A DNA stretch of 32,864 nt, taken from contig DASUUK010000054.1 in the NCBI GenBank assembly GCA_036374135.1, forward strand, positions 1 to 32,864, in the 5' to 3' direction. The position numbers and the translations under genes were made by a program. Positions 11,221 to 19,269 of this stretch are shown here, piece after piece. The number at the start of each line of letters is the position of its first letter. Position 1 is the first letter of the stretch. The notes below the pieces were generated by a model that saw only the letters and a list, made by a program, of their open reading frames with translations, had not been told where the DNA came from and did not search any database. This DNA is from Euzebyales bacterium. GTDB lineage: Bacteria > Actinomycetota > Nitriliruptoria > Euzebyales > JAHELV01.

Positions 11221-12666
11221 TCAGCGCACGCGGACCACGGAGTGCAAGCGTGCCCGCTGCGCGGCGAACCAGTCCTGAGGACTGCCCCGCAGCGAGGCCT
11301 CCCGCAGGGCCGCGGCCCGGCCGGCGCGCTCGACAGCCGACATCGTCAACGCATGCTGCAGCGCCTCGACCTGCGACTCGACGTCGTAGGGATTGACGAG
11401 CAGGGCGTCATCACCCATCGCCGTCGCCGCGCCCGCGGAACGGGAGAGCACGATCACTCCGTTCGCGCGGTTCAGCACCGCCCCCTCCTTGGCGACCAGG
11501 TTCGTACCGTCGATGACCGGATTCGTGAGCATCACGTCGTACCGGCGGAACGCCGCGAGCAGGCGCGGGTAGTCGCTGCCGACGGCGAACTCGAGCACGT
11601 GCTCGCCGAAACGCTCCCGGATGCGGTCCGCAGCCTCCTGACAGGCCTCCAGGTACTGGACGTACTCGGGCACGTCCTGGCGGGACGGGTTGAGCAGCGC
11701 GACGTGCCAGACCCGATCGCGGTGCTCGGGGTGGCGCTCGAGCAGCTGCTCGAACGCCAGCAGGCCACGCAGGATGTTCTTCGACAGATCGGTCCGGTCG
11801 GCCCGGAGCAGCAGCTTGCGTCCGTCGGCCTGCGCCTCGAGGTCCTCGCCGGCGGCGGCGACCTCCTCCCGCTCGGCCGCCGCCTCGAGCGCATCGGCGT
11901 CGACGCCGAGGACGAAGTCGGCCACCGTGGTCGTCTTGTCCTCCAGCGTGACCCGATCGCCGTTGACCTCTGCGCCGCACAGGTCGACGACGCACCGCCG
12001 GAACGCCTCGGACCACTGCGGCGACGAGAACGCGACGACGTCACTGGCCAGCAGCCCGTTCAGGATGCCGCGCGAGACGGGGTCCGGGAGCATCCGCAGG
12101 TACTCCGGCCCCACCCACGGGGTGTGCACATAGTGCAGCATGCCGGCCTCGGGCAGCTTGGACCGGATCGACGGTCCCGCGGTGAACAGGTGGTAGTCCT
12201 GCAGGTGGATCTCGCTGCGGTCGTCGGCGGTGCCGGCGACCGCCTCGGCCACCGCTTCGTTGACCGCGGTGTAGCCGTGGTACCACGCGTCACTCCAGTC
12301 AGTGCCGCTGGGCTCGTAGGGCGCGCCCCACAGCTCGTGCAGGGTGAACCACAGCAACCGGTTCGACACGACGTTGTAGTGCGGATCGAGGCGGTCACCG
12401 ACGTCGAGCAACCGCAGGCGGAAGGTGCCCCGGTCGGTGTCGGCCTCGAAGGCCTCACCATCGTGTGCTTCGGCGACCTCGCGGTCGACGTCGTCGAGCG
12501 CCAGCGAGATCCACGTGTTGTCGCCCCCCACCATCGCATCGCCCAGGGCCGAGACCAGCCCGCCGGCTCCGCGCTCGGCGACCAGGTCATCGCCGTCGCG
12601 CTCCCAACTCACCGGACCCCGGTTGCTGGCAACGACGAGATGGGCATCGGACTCATCGGCATGCAT
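11221..12666 (-). CDS. otsA: Trehalose-6-phosphate synthase-like glycosyltransferase (GT20)
   Basis: A 481-residue GT20 enzyme predicted to join glucose from a nucleotide sugar to glucose-6-phosphate. Visible landmarks are SNRGPVSW near residue 15, the donor loop GAGGLVSAL, LQDYHL, the acceptor-side LHYVHTPW, the phosphate-binding RTDLSKN and the donor-site DGTNLVAKE. Several differ from E. coli OtsA (WVHDYHL, RLDYTKG, DGMNLVAKE), placing it in the actinobacterial branch whose members carry a DxSKN loop. The gene starts 2 bases after the otsB stop, so pairing with a phosphatase supports a trehalose role. The divergence leaves open a different acceptor, for example glycerol 3-phosphate, to give another glycoside osmolyte. 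The product is presumably an osmo- or stress-protectant. Confidence 0.85.
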   Translation of the reverse strand: MHADESDAHLVVASNRGPVSWERDGDDLVAERGAGGLVSALGDAMVGGDNTWISLALDDVDREVAEAHDGEAFEADTDRGTFRLRLLDVGDRLDPHYNVVSNRLLWFTLHELWGAPYEPSGTDWSDAWYHGYTAVNEAVAEAVAGTADDRSEIHLQDYHLFTAGPSIRSKLPEAGMLHYVHTPWVGPEYLRMLPDPVSRGILNGLLASDVVAFSSPQWSEAFRRCVVDLCGAEVNGDRVTLEDKTTTVADFVLGVDADALEAAAEREEVAAAGEDLEAQADGRKLLLRADRTDLSKNILRGLLAFEQLLERHPEHRDRVWHVALLNPSRQDVPEYVQYLEACQEAADRIRERFGEHVLEFAVGSDYPRLLAAFRRYDVMLTNPVIDGTNLVAKEGAVLNRANGVIVLSRSAGAATAMGDDALLVNPYDVESQVEALQHALTMSAVERAGRAAALREASLRGSPQDWFAAQRARLHSVVRVR

Positions 12667-12668
12667 CG

Positions 12669-13481
12669 TCAGGCCTTCGTCGAGAAGTCACGCAGCAGGC
12701 GCAGCAGATCTGCGGTCTGCCCGGGATCATCGAGTCGCACGTGGGCCGCGGTCTCGCGCTCCTCGGCCCCGGCGACGACCACGCCGACGCCGGTCTCCGC
12801 GATCACGGCGAACGCGTCCTCGTCGGTCAGGTCATCGCCGACGTACACGGGTGGATGCGTGTCGACGGACAGGTCGAGCACGTCGGCGAGCCGCAGCACC
12901 GCTCGCCCCTTGTCCCAGTCGATGTCCGGTCGCAGTTCGCGGATGTCGCGCCCGCCTGTGACGCGCAGGCCGTCGCTGTCGCCGGCGACCGCGTCGACGG
13001 CCTCGTGCGCGGTGCGCTCCGAGGCGTCGTCCGCCTCGCGGGTGTGGATCGCGATCGCGTACCGCTTGCGCTCGACCCGGACCCGTTCCGCGGCGGCGAG
13101 CTCGTCGCGCAGCCGCTCCTCGGCGGCGTCGAGCGCGTCGAGGTGTTCCTCGCCCTTGCGCTCGCGACCACCGTCGGGCAGCAGCATGTCGAATCCGTGG
13201 CTTCCGGCATAGGCCAGGCCGGTCACATCGACCATACCCCTGACGTCGGCCAGGTCGCGACCGCTGATGATCGCGACCGGCAGGACCTCGACGAGATCGA
13301 TCAGGGCGGCCCGCGTCGCGTCGTCGAGCGTCGCCGCCGCGGGATCATCGACGATCGGCGTCAGCACGCCGTCGTAGTCGAGGAACACCGTCGGGGTCCG
13401 GCCATCGAGACGTTGCCGCCACACGGACGGTGAGGTGAGCGCATGGGGAAGGCTGGAGATCGACGAGCCGTGCTCGGACAT
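12669..13481 (-). CDS. otsB: Trehalose-6-phosphate phosphatase
   Basis: A 270-residue HAD phosphatase expected to remove phosphate from trehalose 6-phosphate. Motif I is DYDGVLTPI with nucleophile D35 and acid/base D37; motif II is the S in ISGRD; motif III and IV are the lysine in WDKGRAVL and GDDLTDEDAF. The LTPI and GDDxTDEDAF forms are diagnostic of OtsB rather than generic HAD enzymes. Length fits the family. It is followed by otsA after 2 bases (TGACGATG), and preceded by the NAD synthetase-like gene 56 bases away. Its ATG has only a weak ribosome binding site. Confidence 0.93.
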   Translation of the reverse strand: MSEHGSSISSLPHALTSPSVWRQRLDGRTPTVFLDYDGVLTPIVDDPAAATLDDATRAALIDLVEVLPVAIISGRDLADVRGMVDVTGLAYAGSHGFDMLLPDGGRERKGEEHLDALDAAEERLRDELAAAERVRVERKRYAIAIHTREADDASERTAHEAVDAVAGDSDGLRVTGGRDIRELRPDIDWDKGRAVLRLADVLDLSVDTHPPVYVGDDLTDEDAFAVIAETGVGVVVAGAEERETAAHVRLDDPGQTADLLRLLRDFSTKA

Positions 13482-13537
13482 CAGACCACTGGTGCCCGCT
13501 GCGTCACATCACAAACGTCGCGGGCGTCGCGCGGCCC

Positions 13538-15340
13538 TCAGACGGGCTCGTGGGCCAGTGGGGCGTCGGTGCCGGACGCAGGCCCCTCCTCGGCGGGCCC
13601 GGTCTCGCCCGCGCCGGCGTTCGCGACCTCCCCCGTGACAACGAACCGCGGTCGCCACGCCTGGGCGATCGGCACGCGACGGTCGTTGCCGAACGCGCGG
13701 CCGGTGATGCGCACGCCGGTCGGCGCGAGGCGGCGGTAGAGCTCGGTGTTCATCACCTGGCGGGCCACCCACTCGATGTGGGCACGATCGGCGACGTGGG
13801 CGGGGATCTCCTCCAGCGCCTGCATGCGTTCGACGTACCGCTCGAGCACATCGTCGATCACCTGCCACGCCAGGTCGGGCGTGTGGTCGGCCCGCTCGAC
13901 GGTCACGGTCTTGGCGAGCACCTGCTCGGGGATCACCGTCCCGATGCCGTTGCGATGGTGGGCGAGCTCGGCAACCAACGTCTTGGGACAGTCCGCCAGC
14001 GGCGCGAAGTGACCGACCAGGTCGCCGCCGTGCACGGCGGAACCGATCGACAGCTCCGACTTGTTGCCGGTCGCCAGCAGCAGCCGCTCACCCTCGTCGG
14101 CGACCGCCCACAGCGCGGCCGCGCGCGTCCGCAGCACCAGGCGCTCCTCGGCGCGGTCGTCGAGCGCGTCCAGGTTGCGCCCGACCGCACGGGCCAGGCC
14201 GTCGACCACCGCGACCAGATCGATGTCGACGAGCTGCGCTCCGAGCAGCCTGGCCACCGCCCGCGCGTCCTCGACGTCGGCCGCCGCCGTGCGGCGAGCC
14301 GGGGCGGCCACGCAGATGACGTTCCCGCCGCCGAGCGCGTCGACGGCGATGGCGGCGGTGACCGCCGACTCGGTGCCGCCGTTCAGCCCGACGACCGCCT
14401 CGGTGAAGCCGTTGCGGCGCACGTAGTCACGCGTGCCGACCACCAGGGCCTGCCACACCTGGGCGAGCGGATCGGCGGGCTCGGCCGGCGTCGGCGCCGC
14501 GGGCGGCTCGCGGTGCGGCAGCGGACGCGTGTGGATCGTCATCGCATCGGCCACGGTGCGGCGTGGGGCAGGCAGCACGAGGTCCACGACGGCGCGGTCG
14601 ACGGTGAACTGCGGCGCCCGGTAGCACAGCTCGCCGGTACCGTCGACGACCAGGGATCCGCCGTCGAACACCAGGTTGTCGACGCCGCCGTAGCTGTTGA
14701 CGTAGACGACGGGGACACCGTTGCGGCGTGCGACCTGCCGCACGAGGCCGAGGCGGCGCTGGTCCTTGCCACGGTCGAACGGTGAGGCGTTGGGCAGCAG
14801 CAGGACCTGCGCGCCTGCCGCCGACTGGGCCTCCGGCGGTCCGTCACCGGACCACGCGTCCTCGCAGATCGCGATGCCGACGATCACGTCGCCCAGCCGC
14901 CACACCCGGTCGGGATTGGTGCCCGCGGCGAACACCCGTTGCTCGTTGAACACGCCGTACGTCGGCAGCAGGACCTTGTCGTAGTAGCCGCGCACCTCGC
15001 CGTCGTGCAGCACCGCGGCGGTGATGGTGCGGTCGCGCGTCATGGTGTCGTCGTGGCGCTGCAGCGGCACGCGTCGGACGGTGCTCGTGACGACCGCCGT
15101 CCGTCCGCTGCGCGCCGCGAGCTGCGCCAGCGCCGTCTCGGCGTCGGCGAGGAACCCGGCGTGGGTCACCAGGTCGTCCAGGGGATATCCGGTCAGCGCC
15201 AGCTCGGGCAGCACGAGCACGTCGGCGTCGCGGTCCTCGGCCCAGCTGATCGCGTCGCCGATGTTCGACACGTTGGCGGCGAAGTCGCCGATGCGGTTCT
15301 CGATCTGGGCGATCGCGACCCGCAGCACGTGGTCCGTCAT
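13538..15340 (-). CDS. Glutamine-dependent NAD+ synthetase homologue with altered synthetase active site
   Basis: A 600-residue protein with the two-domain plan of glutamine-hydrolysing NAD synthetase. The N-terminal nitrilase-type glutaminase looks intact: E46 in LPELALTGYP, K122 in YDKVLLPTYG, C159 in ICEDAW. The C-terminal synthetase has the TGNKSELSIG and CPKTLV segments, but the pyrophosphate loop, normally SGGxDS, is N320-G-G-T-E324-S, the MPSxYSS segment is APARRTAA, the ENxQARIRG helix is EERLVLRTRA, and the PSAELRPxQxDEDSLP loop is not recognisable. It may use the ammonia differently, be inactive as a synthetase, or be a divergent NadE. ATG 15340 is favoured over GTG 15346 because GGAGAGG lies 9 bases before it. 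It sits between galE (66 bases) and otsB (56 bases). Confidence 0.8.
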   Translation of the reverse strand: MTDHVLRVAIAQIENRIGDFAANVSNIGDAISWAEDRDADVLVLPELALTGYPLDDLVTHAGFLADAETALAQLAARSGRTAVVTSTVRRVPLQRHDDTMTRDRTITAAVLHDGEVRGYYDKVLLPTYGVFNEQRVFAAGTNPDRVWRLGDVIVGIAICEDAWSGDGPPEAQSAAGAQVLLLPNASPFDRGKDQRRLGLVRQVARRNGVPVVYVNSYGGVDNLVFDGGSLVVDGTGELCYRAPQFTVDRAVVDLVLPAPRRTVADAMTIHTRPLPHREPPAAPTPAEPADPLAQVWQALVVGTRDYVRRNGFTEAVVGLNGGTESAVTAAIAVDALGGGNVICVAAPARRTAAADVEDARAVARLLGAQLVDIDLVAVVDGLARAVGRNLDALDDRAEERLVLRTRAAALWAVADEGERLLLATGNKSELSIGSAVHGGDLVGHFAPLADCPKTLVAELAHHRNGIGTVIPEQVLAKTVTVERADHTPDLAWQVIDDVLERYVERMQALEEIPAHVADRAHIEWVARQVMNTELYRRLAPTGVRITGRAFGNDRRVPIAQAWRPRFVVTGEVANAGAGETGPAEEGPASGTDAPLAHEPV

Positions 15341-15406
15341 GTGCACCGACCTCTCCGACCGCCGCGCGATCGATGTGAAGGGCAGCGATCGTGCCGTGGG
15401 GACGCC

Positions 15407-16375
15407 TCACTCCAGGTTCCACCGTCGACGGTGCCACCGCCAGGCCGACGCGACGATCTCACGAAGGTCGGCGTGGCGTGGCTGCCAGTTCAGGACCTCG
15501 CCCGCCCTGGCCGACGACGCGACCAGGGTCGCGGGATCACCCTCGCGCCGCGGCGCCTCGACGGCGGGGATCCGATGTCCGGTCACCTCGCGCGCCACCT
15601 CGATGACCTCACGCACGCTGAAGCCGTCGCCGTTGCCCAGGTTGCACACCAGCAGACCGGGCTCGTCGACCTGCTCGACCGCCTTGACGTGGGCGTCGGC
15701 GAGATCGCTGACGTGGATGTAGTCGCGCACGCACGTGCCGTCGGGCGTGGCGTAATCGGTGCCGAAGATCTTGATCTCGGCACGTCGACCGGCCGCCACC
15801 CGCAGCACGAGCGGGATGAGGTGGGTCTCGGGGTCGTGGTCCTCGCCGCGCTCGTCGGTTGCGCCCGACGCGTTGAAGTAGCGCAGCGCGACCCCGCGCA
15901 TCCCGCGCAGCCGGGCCAGCCACGCCAGCGCGCGCTCGATCAGCAGCTTGCTCTCACCGTACGCGTTGGTCGGCTGCGTGGCGTCGTCTTCGGAGATCGG
16001 CACGCGTTCGGGGTCGCCGTACACAGCCGCGGTCGACGACAGCACGAACCGGTCGACGCCGGCGGCGGTCAGCGCCTGCAACAGCCGCAGCGTGCCGGCC
16101 GTGTTGTTGCCGAAGAAGTCCTCGGGGCGCCGCATCGACTCGCCGGCCTCGATCGACGCCGCGAAGTGGACGCAGGCGTCGACGTCGTCCAGGACGTCGC
16201 GGTAGCCGGCGGGCTCCGCGACGTCGGCGTTGACCACGACGACCCCCTCGGGCACCAGCTCGGCGTGGCCGCTGCGCAGGTCGTCGACCACGACCACGTC
16301 GTGGCCGTGCGCGCGCAGCTGCGCGACGGTCACGGAGCCGATGTAGCCGGCTCCGCCGGTCACGAGCACACGCAT
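15407..16375 (-). CDS. galE: UDP-glucose 4-epimerase
   Basis: A 322-residue extended short-chain dehydrogenase that interconverts UDP-glucose and UDP-galactose with bound NAD+. The NAD site is VTGGAGYIG (5-13). The catalytic residues are the serines of LSSTAAVYG (near 114) and Y139/K143 in AYGESK. RYFNASGA and the NLGNGDGFSV loop are typical of GalE. I chose ATG 16375 because GGAAGGG lies 6 bases before it and the protein then begins MRVLVTGG; a frame starting at 16390 only adds MEGSV. It is the first gene of the long minus-strand carbohydrate block and is divergent from the TPP-riboswitch thiamine operon across about 220 bases. Epimerisation of a UDP-N-acetyl sugar is possible. Confidence 0.95.
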   Translation of the reverse strand: MRVLVTGGAGYIGSVTVAQLRAHGHDVVVVDDLRSGHAELVPEGVVVVNADVAEPAGYRDVLDDVDACVHFAASIEAGESMRRPEDFFGNNTAGTLRLLQALTAAGVDRFVLSSTAAVYGDPERVPISEDDATQPTNAYGESKLLIERALAWLARLRGMRGVALRYFNASGATDERGEDHDPETHLIPLVLRVAAGRRAEIKIFGTDYATPDGTCVRDYIHVSDLADAHVKAVEQVDEPGLLVCNLGNGDGFSVREVIEVAREVTGHRIPAVEAPRREGDPATLVASSARAGEVLNWQPRHADLREIVASAWRWHRRRWNLE

Positions 16376-16451
16376 GACAGACCCTTCCACCGAGATGCCG
16401 CCGCAGTTCGTCGCCGTGGTTCTAGCAGGTCACCGACCGTCCGGGCGTGCG

Positions 16452-16593: not shown

Positions 16594-16598
16594 ATGTG

Positions 16599-17151
16599 AT
16601 GACGCCCACCACGTCGACCAGGATCACCGCCGATGGCGTCTGGGCCGACGTCCGCGCCGTCCGTCAGCAGCGACCACTGGTGCACAACATCACCAACTAC
16701 GTCGTGATGAACAGCACCGCGAACGCGTTGCTCGCGATCGGCGCCTCCCCGGTCATGGCCCACGCGGTCGAGGAGGTGGCCGACATGGCCGCGCTGGCGG
16801 CCGATGCCGCCGCGGCGCTCGTCGACCAGGACCGGCGCGGTCGTGGTCGTGACCGGAGCGACGGATCTCGTGGTGTCCGCCGCCGGCACGGTGGTCATCG
16901 GCAACGGCCACCCGTTGATGGCGCGGGTGACCGGCCTCGGGTGCACCGCCTCCGCACTGTGCGGGGCGTTCGCAGCCGTCCAGCCTGACCCGATGCTCGC
17001 CGCGGCGCATGCCACGGCCGTCAGCGGCATCGTGGGTGAGCTGGCCGCGGCTGAGGCACACGGTCCCGGCACGCTGCAGTTGCACCTGCTGGACCGCCTC
17101 CACGACCTCGACGGCACCCGGATCGGCACGCACCTGCGGGTCGGCGACTGA
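16599..17151 (+). pseudogene. thiM: Hydroxyethylthiazole kinase gene, internally deleted and frameshifted
   Basis: ThiM phosphorylates hydroxyethylthiazole for thiamine salvage and is normally about 265 residues. Here the N-terminal part (from ATG 16599, with [20 protein letters not shown] and [14 protein letters not shown]) is in one frame, and the C-terminal part ([33 protein letters not shown], with the catalytic-region GLGC) is in a second frame ending at TGA 17149-17151. The switch is near 16810-16830. Together the parts encode only about 180 residues, so roughly 80-110 residues of the middle are missing, including the nucleotide- and thiazole-contacting strands after the EEV helix. Frameshifting alone could not restore it. 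It follows the TPP riboswitch and precedes thiE by 2 bases, so the operon structure survived the damage. Salvage of thiazole is presumably lost unless another thiM exists. Confidence 0.85.
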
Positions 17152-17153
17152 TC

Positions 17154-17795
17154 GTGCGCGGCCTGTACCTGGTCACCGATCCCGACCTGATCGGCGACCG
17201 CGACCTCGTCGATGTCGTCATGGCCGCGGTCGACGGCGGCGCGACGTGTGTCCAGCTGCGCGACAAGCGGGCGACGACACGTCAGCTCGTCGAGATCGGC
17301 GAGCGCCTGCGCGCCGTGCTCGCGCCCCGCGGCGTCCCGCTGGTGATCAACGACCGTGTCGACGTCGCACTCGCGGTCGGCGCGGACGGCGTGCACGTCG
17401 GCAGGGACGATATGGATCCCGTGACCGCACGCGCGCTGCTCGGGCCCGAGGCGATCGTCGGGCTGTCGGTCGAGTCGCCCGCCGACGTCGAGCGCGCAGA
17501 GGACCTCGCCGTCGACTACCTCGGGGTCAGCCCCGTCTTCGACACGCCGACCAAGCCCGACACGCTGGACGCGTGGGGGCTCGACGGTCTGGCCCGCGTG
17601 CGCCGGCAGTCGCACCACACCATCGTCGCCATCGGCGGGATCGACCGTGACACGGTGGCCGACGTCGCCGCCGCGGGCGCCGACGCGGTCGCGGTCGTGT
17701 CGGCCGTCTGCGCGGCCGTCGATCCGCGGGCGGCGGCCGCGGAACTGGTCACACGGTTCTCCGAGGCGGCACGACGCGTTGGCGGGCCACGGTGA
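17154..17795 (+). CDS. thiE: Thiamine-phosphate synthase
   Basis: A 213-residue TIM-barrel enzyme that couples hydroxymethylpyrimidine pyrophosphate with thiazole phosphate to give thiamine monophosphate. Signature stretches are LYLVTDPDL at the start, GGATCVQLRDK, NDRVDVALAVGADGVHVG, the loop DYLGVSPVFDTPTKPD that closes over the substrate, and the phosphate-binding AIGGI. Length matches the family. It starts with GTG two bases after the thiM remnant and overlaps thiD by 4 bases (GTGA), so it depends on the upstream riboswitch transcript. There is no visible defect, in contrast to thiM. Confidence 0.96.
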   Translation: MRGLYLVTDPDLIGDRDLVDVVMAAVDGGATCVQLRDKRATTRQLVEIGERLRAVLAPRGVPLVINDRVDVALAVGADGVHVGRDDMDPVTARALLGPEAIVGLSVESPADVERAEDLAVDYLGVSPVFDTPTKPDTLDAWGLDGLARVRRQSHHTIVAIGGIDRDTVADVAAAGADAVAVVSAVCAAVDPRAAAAELVTRFSEAARRVGGPR

Positions 17796-18610
17796 GCCGC
17801 TACCACCGCGCCCTGACGATCGCCGGCTCCGACAGCGGCGGCGGCGCCGGCGTCCAGGCCGACCTCAAGACCTTCTCGGCGCTGGGCTGCTACGGCACGT
17901 CGGTGCTGACCGCGTTGACGGCACAGAACACCGTGGCCGTGACCGCCGTCGAACCGGTGCCGCCCGCGTTCGTGACCGCGCAGCTCGATGCCGTGCTCGA
18001 CGACATCGGCACCGACGCCACCAAGATCGGCATGGCGGCGTCAGCGCCGGTGATCGAGGTGGTCGCCGACGGCCTGCGGCGCCACGACACCGGCCCGGTC
18101 GTGCTCGACCCCGTCATGGTCGCGGCCAGCGGCGCCAGGTTGCTCGCCGACGACGCGGTGGCGGCCATGCGGGAACTGCTGCTGCCACTGGCGACCGTGG
18201 TCACGCCGAACCTGCCCGAAGCCTCGGCCCTGCTGGGCGGCGGCGACGTCGCGACGGTCGCCGACATGGAGCACGCCGCGCGCGAGCTGGGTGCGCTCGG
18301 CCCGACGACGGTGCTCGTCAAGGGTGGCCACCTCGAAAGCGACCGCAGCGTCGACGTCAGCTACGACTCCACCTCCGACGAGACGCGCCGCCTCGACGCA
18401 CCGCGGATCGAGACCGCCAACACGCACGGCACCGGCTGCACGCTGTCGTCGGCCATCGCCGCGCTGCTGGCGCGGGGCGCGACGCTCGAGGGGGCGATCG
18501 ACGGCGGCAAGTCGTACCTGACCGACGCGCTGGCCGCCGGCGCCGACCGTCGGCTGGGCAACGGCACCGGGCCGGTGCACCACTTCGCGCGGCTGTGGCG
18601 CACGTGCTGA
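17792..18610 (+). CDS. thiD: Hydroxymethylpyrimidine (phosphate) kinase
   Basis: A 272-residue ribokinase-fold enzyme that phosphorylates hydroxymethylpyrimidine and then its monophosphate, making the pyrimidine substrate of ThiE. The N-terminal GSDSGGGAGVQADLKTF is diagnostic; DPVMVAASG, TPNLPEAS and KGGHL follow in order, and the anion-hole motif NTHGTGCTLSSAI is near residue 210. Length fits the bifunctional ThiD family. GTG start overlaps the thiE stop by 4 bases, and the last 7 bases overlap the GTG of tenA. All residues expected for activity that I can recognise are present. Confidence 0.96.
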   Translation: MSRYHRALTIAGSDSGGGAGVQADLKTFSALGCYGTSVLTALTAQNTVAVTAVEPVPPAFVTAQLDAVLDDIGTDATKIGMAASAPVIEVVADGLRRHDTGPVVLDPVMVAASGARLLADDAVAAMRELLLPLATVVTPNLPEASALLGGGDVATVADMEHAARELGALGPTTVLVKGGHLESDRSVDVSYDSTSDETRRLDAPRIETANTHGTGCTLSSAIAALLARGATLEGAIDGGKSYLTDALAAGADRRLGNGTGPVHHFARLWRTC

Positions 18611-19269
18611 CATCACCACGGTCGTTCACGACCGAGCTGTGGACGGCGGCCGCGCCGATCTACGACGCCATCGTCGCGCTGCCGTTCAACGTCGAGCTCG
18701 CCCGCGGCACGCTGGAGCGCGACCGGTTCAGGTTCTACATCTTCCAGGACTCGCTGTACCTCGCGGACTTCGCGCGGGCGCTGGCCGTCACCGGCGCACG
18801 CGCCGGCACCTCCGCGCACGTGCTCGACTTCCTGCGCTTCGCCGAGGGCGCCATGGTCGTCGAGCAGGCGCTGCACGCGTCGTACTTCGCCGAGCTCGGC
18901 GTGCCCGAGGGCATCGACCAGTCACCGACCTGCGCCTTCTACACCAACTTCCTGCTGGCCACGGCGTCACACCGCGGCGTCGAGGAGGCCGTCGCCGGCC
19001 TCCTGCCATGCTTCTGGATCTACCGCGAGGTCGGCAACGCGATCCACGCCGCGGCGGCGGCCGACAACCCCTACCGGCGGTGGATCGACACCTACGCAGG
19101 CGACGACTTCTCCGCGTCGGTCGACCGCGCGATCGCGATCACCGACGACGTCGCTGCGGATGCCAGTGAGGCGTCCCGCACACGCATGCGGGACGCCTAC
19201 GTGACATCGAGCCGTCTCGAGTGGATGTTCTGGGACAGTGCGTACCGCATGGAGCGCTGGGGGCCGTGA
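18604..19269 (+). CDS. tenA: TenA aminopyrimidine aminohydrolase (thiaminase II)
   Basis: A 221-residue all-helical TenA/THI-4 protein that hydrolyses aminopyrimidine from degraded thiamine to hydroxymethylpyrimidine, a salvage substrate for ThiD. The proposed catalytic Cys is C136 in LPCFWIYREVG and the catalytic Glu is E206 in RLEWMFWDSAYRMERW, both in their usual settings. YIFQDSLYLADFARAL near residue 50 is also typical. The start is GTG 18604, which overlaps the end of thiD by 7 bases; the frame is open far upstream but that is only thiD in another frame. GTGA at its end overlaps the start of the HAD gene. With thiM broken, pyrimidine salvage stays possible while thiazole salvage does not. 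Confidence 0.95.
   Translation: MLTSPRSFTTELWTAAAPIYDAIVALPFNVELARGTLERDRFRFYIFQDSLYLADFARALAVTGARAGTSAHVLDFLRFAEGAMVVEQALHASYFAELGVPEGIDQSPTCAFYTNFLLATASHRGVEEAVAGLLPCFWIYREVGNAIHAAAAADNPYRRWIDTYAGDDFSASVDRAIAITDDVAADASEASRTRMRDAYVTSSRLEWMFWDSAYRMERWGP

Follow-up and report, generated by a model that had tools for sequence, protein, structure and literature searches.

A conserved actinobacterial paralogue of glutamine-dependent NAD synthetase with an altered pyrophosphate loop and a lost nicotinate-stacking residue

The window, that is, the whole stretch of 32,864 nucleotides analysed here, carries on its minus strand (13538..15346) a gene whose open reading frame, Pfam matches and position in a phylogenetic tree identify the 602-residue product as a divergent paralogue of glutamine-dependent NAD synthetase (NadE). 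We coined the label NadE-P for the clade to which it belongs. The frame starts with GTG, has an ATG two codons downstream and stays open throughout with no internal stop, in keeping with the original prediction that no frameshift is involved. The product has the architecture of NadE, namely an N-terminal CN_hydrolase glutaminase fused to NAD_synthase (Pfam): the nitrilase-fold glutaminase domain comprises residues 8-262 (14561..15325, minus strand; CN_hydrolase match 9-256), and the synthetase domain of the N-type ATP-pyrophosphatase class residues 294-566 (13649..14467, minus strand; NAD_synthase match 298-539; pLDDT mostly >85 in the model described below). The gene lies in a minus-strand run of galE, NadE-P, otsB, otsA, a phosphoglycerate mutase gene and a phosphoglucomutase-family gene, and Pfam bears out the neighbours named in the original prediction, i.e., galE upstream (15407..16390, minus strand; Epimerase) and, downstream, the trehalose-phosphatase gene otsB (12669..13481, minus strand) and an otsA-like glycosyltransferase family 20 gene (11221..12666, minus strand).

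Alignment with other NadE sequences shows a complete glutaminase and a strongly altered synthetase. The triad of Glu48 (15203..15205), Lys124 (14975..14977) and Cys161 (14864..14866, all minus strand) is intact and occurs likewise in 15/15 rows of the window's subclade, clade A, and in 58/58 canonical rows. The pyrophosphate loop, SGGxDS in canonical NadE, reads N322-G-G-T-E-S327 (14366..14383, minus strand) in the context GLNGGTESA; the position of MPSxYSS is occupied by APARRTA and that of ENxQARIRG by ERLVLRTRA. The P2-loop segment (13859..13915, minus strand) is four residues shorter, its DEDSLP stretch is disrupted, and the motif AEL...QxDxDSLPxY of the loop that closes over the adenylate is broken. 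The nicotinate-stacking aromatic residue (Tyr525 in the human enzyme, Trp490 in that of Mycobacterium tuberculosis) is absent, its place being taken by Ser436 (14039..14041, minus strand). What is retained is T426-G-N-K-S-E431 (14054..14071, minus strand) and, with it, the elements of the N-type ATP pyrophosphatases (loop Gly-Gly, T-x-N-K and D-x-x-K) in the form of Gly323, Gly324, Thr426, Asn428, Lys429, Asp452 and Lys455; the Ser and Asp which the wider class has in SGGxDS are Asn and Glu in the window protein and that of one congener. All motif changes and retentions claimed from the bare sequence thus hold up in the alignment.

The fold is predicted to be that of NadE. An AlphaFold2 model, computed from 31 aligned sequences of window and locus proteins, reached a mean pLDDT of 87.1 and a pTM of 0.88, and in the PDB it matches glutamine-dependent NAD synthetases best, the top one being 3n05 of Streptomyces avermitilis (E 1.9e-52, TM 0.83 by query). 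The model thus predicts an intact overall fold and is silent on catalysis. With the 3n05 enzyme, a representative of the PRK13981/NF010588 type, the window protein shares the two-domain order, the triad, this predicted fold and most ATP-pyrophosphatase residues; unlike that type, however, it has no canonical pyrophosphate loop, no nicotinate-stacking aromatic residue, no ENxQ and no P2 motif, it is a paralogue of its own genome's canonical enzyme, and it stays below the cut-off of the NAD+ synthase equivalog model NF010588 of NCBIfam (454.2 against 479 bits). The looser NCBIfam model of the NadE domain, TIGR00552, is still matched above its cut-off (101.4 against 63.65), which counts against the functional reading that we prefer below.

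A second nadE with an SGGxDS loop, for which the original prediction had suggested that the genome be searched, does exist. A search of the genome with PF02540 matched four places, the best of which (236.5 bits) is a full canonical NadE at C31 with SGGIDS, MPSPYSS, EENIQSRIRG and a complete P2 loop; the window gene came second (129 bits), and the two remaining matches are weak. The window gene is therefore a paralogue, the notion that it is the only nadE of the genome, the main condition under which the original prediction would have been refuted, can be rejected, and the best explanation is that NAD synthesis is left to the canonical enzyme.

NadE-family sequences were collected from the window's relatives (61 genomes), its class (66) and a sample of the phylum (396), as well as from 22 selected genomes, queried with the canonical sequence, and from 27 named contigs; after removal of rows with <450 aligned residues and merging of duplicates, the 153 loci with a match gave 80 rows. 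In the 80-row tree, the 22 NadE-P rows form one clade (SH-aLRT 99), and a mixture-model tree of 52/80 rows, including 21/22 NadE-P rows, supports this clade with 97 and a separate clade of the canonical copies of the window's class with 99. Because these canonical copies cluster separately, a recent in-genome duplication is rejected. Assembly contamination is unlikely, since a congener (G002) carries the same gene at the same place. Judged from the sequences at hand, NadE-P is a real, conserved and old paralogue. Its 22 members, one in each of 22 actinobacterial genomes, fall into clade A (15 rows; nine genomes of the window's class and six of family f15) and its sister, group B (seven genomes of the window's order), and occur in 16/66 genomes of the window's class and in 6/39 genomes of the order containing f15. 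Two further congeners, G001 and G003, have canonical nadE only. Motif-verified canonical NadE is present in 19/22 NadE-P genomes; in two others (G043 and G262) it was seen only as a fragment at a contig end, and in G329, an assembly that is 75% complete, it was not found. One contig scan (27 loci) contributed no further NadE-P row among those entering the tree. A description of the clade was absent from the literature searched, a search thin on subscription journals.

How much of the altered active site belongs to the clade and how much to the window gene can be read from these rows. The sequence NGGTES occurs in 2/80 of them, the window and G002, and Ser322 and Asp326 are invariant in the other 78/78, canonical and paralogous alike; a Tyr494 to Trp exchange is confined to the same pair. 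MPSxYSS, ENxQ and the canonical P2 motif, on the other hand, are gone from 22/22 NadE-P rows. As such, the clustering of changes proposed in the original prediction is real, but it is specific to this gene only for the pyrophosphate loop, the remainder being a property of the old clade. Among near-universal columns, the window protein alters 3/22 in the synthetase and 1/27 in the glutaminase (Asp134 to Asn, not shared by G002).

A finer picture emerges from the 98 columns that are at least 95% conserved among the 58 canonical rows. The glutaminase columns are retained near-completely in clade A (the triad, Glu162, Asp163, Trp165, Ser188 and Arg198, all 15/15), apart from switches of Asn108 to Ile (15/15) and of Gly88 to Ser (14/15). 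On the synthetase side, Thr426, Asn428, Asp452, Lys455, Arg408, Glu535, Arg538, Arg556 and Arg557 are kept in 15/15 rows, Lys429 and Arg406 in 14/15 and Ser322 and Asp326 in 13/15, while Ser327 is Ala and Glu431 is His in 6/15 each. In all six f15 proteins (L122-L127), T-x-N-K-S-E has become T-S-N-K-T-H, the lost Glu being invariant in canonical NadE. Completely missing from clade A (0/15) are Tyr436, Tyr440, Asn402 and Gln404, and the P2-loop Leu is deleted in 15/15 rows. Only the window pair (2/15) retains the first Asp column of the P2 motif, a count subject to uncertain alignment inside the loop. The same uncertainty makes our placing of the human P2-loop residues in these columns tentative. 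According to a structural study, the human residues Ala573, Leu575, Asp587 and Asp590 contact ligands or close the loop, and Trp490 of the M. tuberculosis enzyme, equivalent to human Tyr525, stabilises the nicotinic ring (PMC6946656). It is to this Trp490 that column 436 maps (the chain numbering is one higher). The pattern of clade A, as far as residues can tell, is thus one of lost nicotinate recognition and mostly retained ATP chemistry. The Ala at 327 and the His at 431, each in 6/15 rows, go against so tidy a pattern, and so does group B. Its members resemble clade A in having lost MPSxYSS, ENxQ and the canonical P2 motif, but unlike the window protein they retain SGGxDS, their P2 loop has the canonical length, and the stacking position is aromatic (Tyr or Phe) in 7/7 rows.

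The gene is under purifying selection. Between the window and G002, dN is 0.109 and dS 0.612 (dN/dS ~0.18), and conservation is higher in the altered active-site segments than in the remainder of the domain, which supports the original prediction in seeing more than simple decay: in a set of segments chosen by us, from which the MPSxYSS and P2 segments were excluded, 92/102 synthetase positions are identical compared with 122/171 in the remainder (p = 2e-4). In the canonical pair, the corresponding values are 92/102 and 141/169. The least conserved segments of the window pair are those of MPSxYSS (6/11) and P2 (9/19). Since the surroundings of NGGTES are conserved between the two genomes, the altered loop is being maintained, and decay is unlikely.

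The two halves of the protein show an inverted domain conservation. The window protein and that of G002 are 92% identical in the glutaminase and 78% in the synthetase, whereas the canonical copies of the same two genomes show the reverse order (73% and 84%). Among the ten genomes with both copies aligned (10/15 of clade A), conservation is higher in the glutaminase half in 45/45 paralogue pairs compared with 1/45 canonical pairs, although these pairs are non-independent owing to their shared history; in group B, this half is likewise ahead in the 10/10 pairs computed, which cover 5/7 members. On this comparative evidence, the weight of selection has shifted to the glutaminase half.

From our point of view, the window NadE-P is probably no longer an NAD synthetase, and we tentatively favour, while according it somewhat less than an even chance, that NadE-P is a former NAD synthetase turned into a glutamine-dependent enzyme for another acid. 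NadE-P has lost residues for the recognition of nicotinate and for closure of the P2 loop on nicotinate adenine dinucleotide (NaAD), whereas the glutaminase, the predicted overall fold and most residues that handle ATP and the adenylate are kept. The glutaminase half would release ammonia from glutamine, which would be channelled to the remodelled ATP-dependent site and there amidate a carboxylic acid different from NaAD. The altered substrate of the original prediction is supported by the loss of nicotinate-contact residues across the subclade. As a rule, NadE is essential and devoted to a single reaction. A precedent for a changed acceptor is the NMN synthetase NadE* of Francisella, a single-domain relative that prefers NaMN over NaAD.

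In the window's genus, the further exchanges of Ser to Asn and Asp to Glu would be expected to make the site dependent on channelled instead of free ammonia, by analogy with the nit11 mutant of Salmonella, whose NadE carries the same Ser-to-Asn change at the first position of SGGxDS (S48N; the mutated serine is printed both as Ser-84 and as S48N). This exchange in the conserved motif raised the apparent Km for ammonia ~70-fold (~100-fold in the discussion of that report), and a higher ammonia supply restored growth (PMC3376133). The Salmonella enzyme differs, however, in that it is a single-domain ammonia enzyme with one laboratory mutation in an otherwise normal site, and in that NAD is still made, if with a high Km for ammonia (PMC3376133). 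The use of glutaminase-derived ammonia, another element of the original prediction, is plausible for the window protein because of this mutant and because of the unusually conserved glutaminase. The more far-reaching proposal, that NadE-P represents a new class of glutamine-dependent amidotransferase on the NAD synthetase scaffold, forming the amide of some other acid in actinobacteria, in which an NGGxES loop enforces channelled ammonia in the window's genus, appears rather doubtful to us.

Different observations fit less well with a new synthetase activity. That the synthetase is the less conserved half suggests the reverse of what one would expect for a specific new activity, and ATP chemistry could be lost where both near-universal loop residues are altered, as in the window pair, or where Glu431 is His, as in the six clade A rows. 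One could imagine that NadE-P works as a glutaminase or amidase through its nitrilase half alone, the synthetase half being vestigial or sensory and serving only to stabilise the oligomer or to sense a nucleotide. We regard this as possible, if on the unlikely side, and as a serious competitor: the inverted conservation, non-independent pairs included, the fixed changes N108I and G88S within the glutaminase, the altered loop Ser and Asp of the window pair and the Ala in place of the second loop Ser in 6/15 rows all agree with it, but the near-invariant ATP-site residues of clade A and the conserved active-site segments of the window pair do not. Distinctly less likely is a second NAD (or NMN) synthetase isozyme with different kinetics or regulation. 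Such an enzyme would account for the match to family profile and fold and for the retained TGNKSE, it would be at home beside the nicotinate phosphoribosyltransferase gene (Pfam) and the ORF resembling PRPP synthase (by eye from its sequence) that adjoin NadE-P in one genome (L039), and the Salmonella S48N enzyme is still functional (PMC3376133); it is at odds, though, with the absence from 15/15 clade A rows of the stacking Tyr, the Leu of the P2 loop and the Asn of ENxQ, with the presence of a canonical copy and with the NF010588 score. Very unlikely, in our estimate, is a non-catalytic role in which NadE-P assembles with canonical NadE and adjusts how that enzyme is regulated or supplied with ammonia. 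The full-length NadE fold of the model would permit this, as would the oligomeric nature of glutamine-dependent NadE with its NaAD site at the dimer interface (PMC6946656). Lastly, a decaying duplicate, as the many altered family-wide motifs and the long branch to the window pair might suggest, is hardly credible, being already contradicted by the open frame, the dN/dS ratio, the identity of the altered loop in two genomes at a dS of ~0.6 and the retention of the clade in 22 genomes.

A conserved clade that dropped the nicotinate site while retaining the glutaminase and most of the adenylation machinery would show how the NadE scaffold can be released for a different chemistry, and the natural NGGTES loop offers a direct test of the roles of the pyrophosphate-loop Ser and Asp. 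Annotators should beware, because NadE-P genes match NAD synthetase profiles and would thereby lead metabolic models and target lists astray.

The neighbouring genes name no substrate, and the partner gene is inconsistent across loci. NadE-P lies beside otsBA in three loci (the window, L035 and L036, the latter from G047), beside an asparagine synthase gene in six (L037, L039, L040, L133, L047 and L048), five of which also have an osmoprotectant-type ABC transporter (G005, G042 and G043, and G013 and G026 of group B), and beside a GH65 glycosidase gene in one (L041). In G063, the asparagine synthase gene by NadE-P is near a contig end; other members stand beside unrelated genes. Apart from distant ABC-transporter matches, neither the G025 locus nor those of the scanned f15 genomes matched otsBA, asparagine synthase, the transporter or GH65, and in the stretch of G047 where a transporter-asparagine synthase cluster lies elsewhere, no NadE-P match was found. 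The galE and NadE-P frames of G002 overlap, the stop of the former with the start of the latter. The sequence GTTT-N15-GGGCA between NadE-P and otsB (13493-13516, minus strand) is the sole match in the window (0.15 expected), is visible with the same spacing in G001 and G002, and resembles the general-stress (SigB-type) promoters of actinobacteria. G001 has galE-otsB-otsA-pgm without NadE-P (L173 1567-6604), with ~80 bases between galE and otsB; within this stretch, no match to the phosphoglycerate mutase of the window was obtained. A link to trehalose is weak because of this operon and the promoter-like site, and these two, together with the loci of G047, G025 and f15, weaken an osmolyte hypothesis drawn from the neighbours. 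Amide synthesis of the NAGGN type via the adjacent AsnB was rejected as well, since three adjacent AsnB-type proteins scored 240.7, 246.0 and 250.7 with TIGR03104, far below its cut-off of 570.1, and best as asparagine synthase B.

The otsA-like protein of the window is itself divergent (279.5 bits against a TIGR02400 cut-off of 564.85; ~31% identical to OtsA of G047), and its product may therefore be other than plain trehalose phosphate. On the plus strand of the window, thiamine genes occupy 16596-19269, comprising a partial hydroxyethylthiazole kinase match, TMP synthase, HMP-P kinase and a TenA-like gene (Pfam). A class IV aminotransferase gene (family F21) adjoins NadE-P in G047 (L036), and a homologue adjoins canonical NadE in G118 (L128), perhaps as a trace of the ancestral gene order.
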